Assembly: GCA_947447945.1 (NCBI GenBank)
Contig: CANFLR010000003.1
Coordinates: 1-64,000, forward strand
DNA: 64,000 nt
Reading direction: 5' to 3'
From: Burkholderiaceae bacterium
GTDB lineage: Bacteria; Pseudomonadota; Gammaproteobacteria; Burkholderiales; Burkholderiaceae
The translations under genes were made by a program, and so were the position numbers. Of the stretch, positions 42,229 through 45,081 are shown piece by piece (within the stretch, counting starts at the first letter, position 1; each line of letters starts with the position of its first letter). Below the pieces are notes generated by a model. The model was not told the origin of the DNA, did no database searches, and was given only the letters and a program-made list of their open reading frames with translations.

Positions 42229-43680
42229 TTAATAACGATAGTGGTCAGCCTTATAAGGGCCTTCCTTCGTTACGCCAATATATGCAGCTTGTTGATCAGA
42301 CAATACGGTTAACTCTGCATTGAGCGTTTTGAGCTGTAAACGAGCAACCTTCTCATCTAAATGTTTAGGCAAAGTGTATACACCAATTGGGTATTTGTTT
42401 GTGCCAACGGCATTCCACAACTCAATTTGCGCGATCACTTGGTTTGCAAAGGAGGAGCTCATCACATAGGATGGATGACCTGTACCGCAACCTAAATTCA
42501 CTAAACGTCCCTTAGCCAAAATGATGATGCGCTTTTCAGGATTACCATTCGCAGCTGGGAAAATCACATGGTCAACTTGAGGCTTAATTTCTTCCCACCG
42601 GTATTTTTCAATCCCTGCAACATCAATCTCATTGTCAAAGTGGCCGATATTACAAACGATCGCTTGATTTTTCATCTTCACCATATGGTCATGAGTGATC
42701 ACATGGTAGTTGCCTGTTGCTGAAACAAAGATATCAGCCTTATCAGCAGCGTAATCCATGGTGACAACACGATAACCTTCCATCGCAGCCTGTAAAGCAC
42801 AAATTGGATCTACCTCAGTAACCCAAACTTGAGCTGATAAAGCACGCAATGCTTGTGCAGAACCTTTACCCACATCGCCGTAACCACACACGACTGCAAC
42901 CTTACCAGCAACCATCACATCGGTAGCGCGCTTAATTGCGTCCACTAAAGATTCACGGCAACCATACAGGTTGTCAAACTTACTCTTAGTAACAGAATCA
43001 TTGACGTTAATCGCTGGGAACTTCAAGTCGCCCTTAGCAAACATTTGATACAAGCGGTGAACACCTGTAGTGGTTTCTTCAGTAACGCCTTTGACTTTTT
43101 CTAAACGAGTTGAGTACCACGTTGGATCTTGTGCTAATTTTTTCTTAATGGCAGAAAATAAAATTGTTTCTTCTTCGCTGGTCGGGTGATTTAAGCAAGC
43201 TTGATCTTTTTGGGCGCGTGCACCAAGGTGCAATAACAAAGTAGCATCTCCACCGTCATCCAAAATCATATTAGTAAAGCCGCCATCAGCCCACTCAAAA
43301 ATACGATGTGTAAAGTCCCAGTATTGCTCAAGAGTCTCACCCTTAATTGCGTATACAGGTGTGCCATTCGCAGCAATTGCAGCAGCAGCATGATCTTGAG
43401 TGGAGAAAATATTGCAAGAGGCCCATTGCACTTCTGCCCCAAGCGCTTCTAGTGTCTCAATCAACACCGCAGTTTGAATGGTCATATGCAAAGAACCAGT
43501 AATGCGTGCGCCTCGCAGTGGCTGCCCTGCAGCAAACTCATCACGAATGGCGATGAGACCTGGCATCTCGGTTTCGGCAATGGCAATTTCTTTGCGGCCA
43601 AAATCGGCCAAAGAAATGTCAGCAATCGCACAGTGGCTTGCTACAAAGTCTTGTAAGTTGAAATCAGAAACGGTATTCAT
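42229..43680 (-). CDS. ahcY: Adenosylhomocysteinase
   Basis: [33 protein letters not shown]; start at 43680 ([12 protein letters not shown]), not 43740, with GGAG SD. Confidence 0.96.
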
Positions 43681-43720
43681 GAATGCTCCAGCTAAATACG
43701 ATCCAATGCTGGAGTAGATA

Positions 43721-43751
43721 CTCGCTAGCCATTGAATCATGGGTTAGCGAG
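43721..43751 (-). promoter_or_regulatory. Putative anti-P4 hairpin of SAH riboswitch expression platform
   Basis: Minus strand CUCGCUA (43751-43745) pairs with UAGCGAG (43727-43721), overlapping the P4 3' strand CGCUC. Confidence 0.55.
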
Positions 43752-43846
43752 CGCAGTTGCAATTAGTAAACCCCGTTTAAGAGCTCGCTCCCTTCAAGCC
43801 TGGGGAAATACTGGTTCTCAGCATTCCTTGCAACGCTCCTTGAAGG
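43746..43846 (-). ncRNA. S-adenosylhomocysteine (SAH) riboswitch upstream of ahcY
   Basis: Minus strand CCUUCAAG-GAGCGUUGCAA-[GGAAUGCUG..CAGUAUUUCC hairpin]-CCAGG-CUUGAAGG...GCGCUC: P1 8 bp, conserved GAGCG(Y)UGCAA and CCAGGCU, 3' P4 strand. Confidence 0.9.
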
Positions 43847-43914
43847 TATGGGGAAATTGTAATCAATTTCGCCATATTTCGCTTCAATACAACTACATTC
43901 TGCTTATTTACTGC

Positions 43915-45081
43915 TTACAGGCCTGCTGCCGCACGTAAAGCAGGCGCTTTATCACACTGTTCCCAGGTAAATTCTGGCTCTTCACGACCAAAGTGGCCAT
44001 AAGCCGCCGTCTTACGATAGATTGGGCGCAATAGGTTCAAGGTCTTAATGATGCCCTTTGGACGAAGATCAAAATGCTCAGAAACCAATTGGGAAATCTT
44101 TTCATCAGAAATCTTACCGGTTCCATAGGTGCTCACCATAACTGATGTTGGCTTGGCCACACCAATTGCATATGACACCTGGACCAAGCATTTCGTAGCC
44201 AAACCTGCGGCCACGACATTCTTGGCAACATAGCGCGCAGCATATGCAGCGGAGCGGTCAACTTTAGAGGGATCCTTACCCGAGAACGCACCGCCACCGT
44301 GAGGGGCAGAGCCGCCGTAGGTATCCACCACGATTTTCCGACCAGTTAAGCCGCAATCACCTTGTGGGCCGCCAATGACAAATCGACCGGTTGGGTTTAC
44401 TAAATAATTGATTGCGCCTTTAACCAAGTGCTTTGGCAACACTGGCTTAATAATTTCTTCAATTACTGCTTCACGCAATTTTTCGAGAGAAATATCTTCA
44501 TCATGTTGAGTGGATAGCACTACGGTATCAATCGCATCAGGCTTACCATCTACGTAACGCAGGGTAACTTGAGACTTGGCATCAGGGCGCAACCAGCTTA
44601 AACGGCCATCACGTCTAAGCTGAGACTGGCGCTCTACCAAGCGATGGGACAAGTGAATTGGCAATGGCATTAGTTCGGCCGTCTCATCACAAGCGTAACC
44701 AAACATTAGACCTTGGTCACCAGCACCCAGCTCTAATTCATCATCGTGCGCATGATTAACGCCTTGGGCAATATCGGGACTTTGCTTGTCATAGGCAACC
44801 AATACTGCACAGCCCTTGTAATCAATACCATAGGCAGTATTGTCGTAGCCAATTTCACGCAAAGTATTGCGGGCTACCTGAATGTAATCGACGTTTGCAT
44901 TTGTGGTGATCTCACCAGCCAATACCACCAAGCCGGTATTACACAAAGTTTCCGCGCCGACGCGTGCCGTTGGGTCTTGGGCCAAGATGGCATCCAAAAC
45001 TGCATCAGAGATCTGATCTGAAACTTTATCGGGGTGACCTTCAGAAACAGACTCTGAGGTAAAGAAGTAATCATTTGCCAT
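43915..45081 (-). CDS. metK: S-adenosylmethionine synthetase
   Basis: [60 protein letters not shown]. Confidence 0.98.

Follow-up and report, generated by a model that had tools for sequence, protein, structure and literature searches.

SAH riboswitches are reportedly ON switches, a logic said to have been described by Wang et al. in 2008. The closest known system to the leader analysed here is the SAH riboswitch upstream of ahcY in beta- and gamma-proteobacteria (Rfam RF01057), with which it shares aptamer sequence and structure, gene context and the expected ON logic. The aptamer class, its ahcY target and the ON sign are already known, and ahcY and metF form the core regulon of this riboswitch (PMC4239095). 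In E. coli btuB, the Shine-Dalgarno (SD) sequence is freed by a helix that captures the anti-SD strand (PMC11162775). Expression platforms generally vary too much to be analysed by covariation (PMC13273304, a paper that does not treat SAH riboswitches).

We analysed the ahcY leader in a 64,000-nt stretch of DNA from a Burkholderiaceae bacterium (the window), together with the leaders of its congeners. Folding and covariation point to a riboswitch in which four helices that each share sequence with the next (P4, H1, H3 and H2) probably form a relay switching ahcY translation ON.

The aptamer and its locus

The aptamer sits on the minus strand between metK (43915–45081) and ahcY (42229–43680), and a metF-type gene lies downstream; the riboswitch thus precedes a gene of the SAM cycle (gene names from NCBIfam). 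From its AUG at 43680, ahcY encodes an adenosylhomocysteinase of 483 aa (TIGR00936, 578.9 bits; cut-off 497.6). A preliminary description had proposed an SAH riboswitch of ahcY, which this gene match and a cmscan search bear out: RF01057 matches at 43847–43742 (minus strand) over its full length (model positions 1–78 of 78), with 49.8 bits against a gathering score of 37 (E = 3.4e-6). Sequence and model alignment place P1 at CCUUCAAG (43846–43839) and CUUGAAGG (43798–43791), P2, by model alignment, at about 43827–43803, and the P4 pseudoknot at GAGCG (43838–43834) and CGCUC (43753–43749). The conserved elements GAGCGyUGCAA and CCAGG are present, with GAGCGUUGCAA and CCAGG both found in the window aptamer. 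P1, the conserved elements and the P4 3' strand GCGCUC (43754–43749) had been read correctly in the preliminary description; its statement that the arm CUCGCUA contains the P4 3' strand does not hold, as GCGCUC and CUCGCUA overlap by CUC only. By its sequence, the leader is a member of the known SAH aptamer class upstream of ahcY, and would be expected to bind SAH. The full leader (z = -2.53) and the platform alone (z = -3.61) fold more stably than chance.

The aptamer was found in 177 of the 186 genomes of the genus, which is probably Polynucleobacter or a near relation, and in most other sampled families of the order. One complete congener (G033) gave no riboswitch match and also no AhcY, MetK or MetF-type protein match; the block is probably masked or missing from this genome rather than the riboswitch lost. 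Another congener carries a second SAH riboswitch upstream of metH (L046; genome G015, contig 86, 22063–22156), with a six-codon frame, MKRVAN*, between SD and metH AUG and loops that also pair with each other. In another family (G046), a single leader carries two SAH aptamer matches (L006 and L067) spaced by about 150 nt, and a U-rich stretch follows the hairpin located after the first.

Upstream of the aptamer, the congener alignment shows a -10-like hexamer, TACAAT (43861–43856, minus strand), whose counterpart in other congeners is TATAAT and whose spacing from P1 is nearly constant. A generic promoter scan gave no match; the sequence and position of the box make it a probable promoter of a separate riboswitch-ahcY transcript. 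The box is overlapped by an inverted repeat, AUGGCGAAAUUG-AUUA-CAAUUUCcCCAU (43875–43848, minus strand), which has 12-bp arms and adjoins the aptamer. The arms change together in congeners (ATAGAG/CTCTAT, ATGACG/CGTCAT, ATGCAG/CTGCAT, ATGCCG/CGGCAT), with 23 double-change cells against 8.5 in shuffled data (0/500), and the genome holds a single exact copy of the 14-bp centre. The repeat may be a DNA operator, an RNA hairpin in metK read-through or a by-product of template switching.

Two exclusive folds of the platform

Two hairpins separate P4 from the start codon. The anti-P4 hairpin H1 (43751–43721, minus strand) pairs CUCGCUA (43751–43745) with UAGCGAG (43727–43721), exact complements across a 17-nt gap, extended by an inner CCAU/AUGG. 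The 7-bp hairpin H2 (43714–43686, minus strand) pairs the anti-SD arm CUCCAGC (43714–43708) exactly with GCUGGAG (43692–43686) and thereby hides the SD of ahcY, GGAG (43689–43686), 5 nt before the AUG at 43680–43678. Both hairpins, assigned to the OFF state by folding and pair counts, are as the preliminary description had drawn them. That description had also proposed a helix, GAGU-AUCU-ACUC, for the ON state.

Leaders of 95 congeners show conservation all the way from P4 to the SD, both hairpin loops included. A GAGU/ACUC helix does not need this conservation of the loops. The two loops are complementary, AUGAUUCAAUG in H1 to CAUUGGAUCGU in H2. When the P4 3' strand is left out, the leader folds into a single long third hairpin, H3 (43748–43691, minus strand, roughly 58 nt), an assignment that also draws on covariation and loop shuffles. 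From outside to inside, it consists of the base GCUAA/UUAGC (43748–43744/43695–43691), the 11-bp core AUGAUUCAAUG/CAUUGGAUCGU (43740–43730/43708–43698), the pairs CU/AG (43728–43727/43710–43709) and the tip GAGU/ACUC (43723–43720/43715–43712). H3 opens at the base that follows P4 and closes one base short of GGAG. Since H3 contains the anti-SD arm, H2 and H3 exclude each other, as do H1 and H3.

Predicted energies and order of folding

Opening the SD in the window leader costs 6.1 kcal/mol when the P4 3' strand is present and 0.3 kcal/mol when it is deleted, a deletion that imitates the bound state in folding free of SAH, Mg2+ and the SAH-P4 pseudoknot. In silico, the SD is thus hidden without ligand and free when P4 is held, the behaviour of a translational ON switch. 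This agrees with the platform logic of the preliminary description, OFF by default through the anti-P4 and SD hairpins, and with its predicted direction, in which bound SAH raises AhcY. When both loops were shuffled and the H1 and H2 stems and GAGU/ACUC kept, the cost was 6.68 ± 1.88 kcal/mol, and 0 of 500 shuffled leaders came as low as 0.29. Breaking H3 in silico from either side closed the SD, and the double change opened it again.

H3 has a predicted energy of -20.3 kcal/mol (minimum, -21.1), against -19.2 for residual H1 together with H2, in which the SD is hidden. At equilibrium H3 is ahead by just 1–2 kcal/mol, a margin at which the ON state may be partial. Adding 15 nt of coding sequence hid the SD again through other pairings in some relatives (P_on 0.05–0.3 in several). 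Because the SD lies flush against a strong hairpin, ribosome loading may also be less good than the opening cost suggests.

Folding at increasing lengths, which gives the equilibrium at each length and not the kinetics, forms the tip of H3, then its core and then its base, all before the SD is synthesised. Without ligand, H1 keeps a value of 0.98 up to base 55 and exceeds 0.9 as far as base 61 in the same stepwise folding.

A relay would work as follows. Without SAH, the P4 3' strand would be taken by H1, which would form immediately on its transcription. H1 would lock the 5' half of H3, leaving the anti-SD arm CUCCAGC to pair later with GCUGGAG in H2, and the SD would be hidden. With SAH, P4 would be held in the aptamer and the outer pairs of H1 lost, and H3 could grow from its GAGU/ACUC tip through the core to the GCUAA/UUAGC base ahead of SD transcription. 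In absorbing the anti-SD arm, H3 would block H2 and leave GGAG free just outside, and the increased AhcY would then clear SAH. The aptamer match, the exclusive pairings, the predicted energies and the covariation of H3 come from the analysis itself; SAH binding, P4 as the ligand-gated step, the intracellular folding order and the translational outcome are inferred.

Covariation of H3

The preliminary description had suggested looking for covariation in the anti-P4 and SD hairpins. In the window clade these are uninformative, H1 and H2 being 97% paired each and nearly invariant; the helix it had overlooked, H3, does show compensatory changes. In an alignment of 26 distinct platforms, the H3 core is 95% paired, falling to 20–47% when slid, and holds nine double-change cells against 2.6 expected (0/500 shuffles), in a control that ignores relatedness, so that these shuffle figures are not probabilities. 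Nine divergent members of the clade are 96% paired, and in four pairs both sides have changed; GAGU/ACUC is paired in 94% of cells. An alignment-free test, in which each H1 loop was set against its own and other species' H2 side in 20,000 permutations, gave -9.8 kcal/mol for own partners and -6.2 for those of others in the window clade (p about 5e-5, the permutation floor).

Several lineages have H3 helices of their own: AUAAUCCAAUG/CAUUGGGUUGU in L091, AACG/CGUU in L099, CAGUUCA/UGAACUG in L090 and GAAUGCUGGCGG/CCGCUGGCGUUC in L072. Such different helices in separate lineages are a stronger argument for H3 than the shuffle counts.

Alternative explanations

The complementarity of the loops could also be read as a loop-loop contact, in which AUGAUUCAAUG pairs with CAUUGGAUCGU while H1 and H2 stay intact and the OFF state is strengthened. 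The core pairs are located in both loops and the same covariation would be expected, but in L072, L076 and L077 the helix also takes in the 3' arm of H1 and the anti-SD arm, an arrangement incompatible with H1 and H2. The GCUAA/UUAGC base clashes with both hairpins too, as do lengthened tips, for example GCGAGUU/AACUUGC in L080, and a 15-nt H2 loop has little room for an 11-bp contact, which makes such a contact unlikely. We consider very unlikely the earlier proposal that freed UAGCGAGU forms only GAGU-AUCU-ACUC, a helix that would release the SD by invading the anti-SD arm. GAGU/ACUC is a real element of the predicted ON state, widely paired in the clade and the earliest part to form in the bound state, where it is the nucleating tip of H3. 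Alone, it cannot open the SD hairpin: residual H1 with this helix reaches only -10.6 kcal/mol, against -19.2 for residual H1 with H2, and the shuffled-loop leaders retain the helix yet stay closed. On these energies and shuffles we rejected GAGU/ACUC alone as the ON state, which would also leave the covariation of the loops unexplained.

Two further readings concern what the conserved stretch is for. H1 might be a transcription terminator and P4 its antiterminator, with H2 and H3 secondary; six to eight U follow H1 in the congeners L035, L073 and L107, and L010 and L027 from other families are similar. In the window, however, H1 is followed by UAUCUACUCC, a scan limited to loops of 3–8 nt found no terminator-like site, and the entire window clade is built for SD switching, so that an intrinsic terminator at H1 is highly improbable here. 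Rho-dependent termination after failed translation is possible in the window leader. That the stretch encodes an N-terminal extension of AhcY, begun at an in-frame AUG at 43740, is the hardest to credit and can be given almost no weight. In its favour, the window frame runs open into AhcY (503 aa), as does that of the first AUG in 44 of 95 congeners. In 28 others that AUG lies in another frame or its frame meets a stop, and 23 lack it; L040 shows a UAG in frame, and the variable codon between the arms changes freely among F, I, P, L, S and T. As a true start, this AUG, 60 nt before that of ahcY, was rejected for want of an SD upstream and of conservation among the 95 congeners. Automatic gene callers may nevertheless pick it (503 aa; extra stretch 43740–43681, minus strand).

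Platform variants within the genus

The predicted four-helix relay extends throughout the window clade. All 43 of its distinct platforms behave alike, the mean SD cost falling from 6.5 to 0.47 kcal/mol without the P4 3' strand; with the H1 loop alone shuffled, the mean is 4.4 against 0.47 (Wilcoxon p = 2e-13, on related sequences). In the other set of 26 platforms, the cost goes from 7.0 to 2.7 kcal/mol irrespective of the H1 loop. The loop-pairing test indicates some H1-loop pairing in this set as well (group B, p 0.0002 to 0.003), which does not yield predicted SD opening. Several of its leaders have six to eight U directly after H1 and the look of intrinsic terminators. They are absent from the terminator scan output because of its loop limit of 8 nt, which misses the layout of a 12-nt-loop hairpin followed by U in L035 and L073.

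In an AhcY tree the relay clade forms one group (93/94, slightly short of the starred level), with two U-tract leaders outside it; built from one gene and with few firm forks, this tree leaves the direction of change unproven, and a change from termination to the translational relay is the simplest reading. Tentatively, then, one genus may have kept the aptamer and the anti-P4 hairpin while a probable intrinsic terminator gave way to control by a translational relay, a new hairpin arising from the loops of two older ones.

Comparison with known riboswitches

The aptamer is known and the platform variant is new, although a similar relay may possibly appear for another species in the original SAH riboswitch papers. 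Rfam RF01057 models the aptamer only, whereas the window platform adds the predicted four-helix relay with its covarying ON-state hairpin. About 70 distinct platforms in one genus gave covariation for this hairpin and a precise model of strand exchange that makes predictions for single helices. Unlike the window, other families of the order have the SD right after P4 or a U-tract following H1. In L021 (G059, family f24, outside the genus), GAGCGCCG/CGGCGCUC joins the 3' arm of the anti-P4 hairpin to the anti-SD side, a pairing that, from its sequence, could possibly be a second relay.

The likeness to E. coli btuB lies in the anti-SD/anti-anti-SD scheme. There, the ligand turns expression OFF; in the window it is predicted to do the reverse, and a separate anti-aptamer hairpin conceals the anti-anti-SD. 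The U-tract SAH riboswitches (L035, L073 and L107; L010 and L027 in other families) have the same aptamer as the window and the anti-P4 hairpin in the same position, but a probable intrinsic terminator replaces the H3 relay, and SD opening in that set is independent of the H1 loop. With these natural sister variants, the shift of one aptamer between transcriptional and translational control becomes testable inside a single genus.
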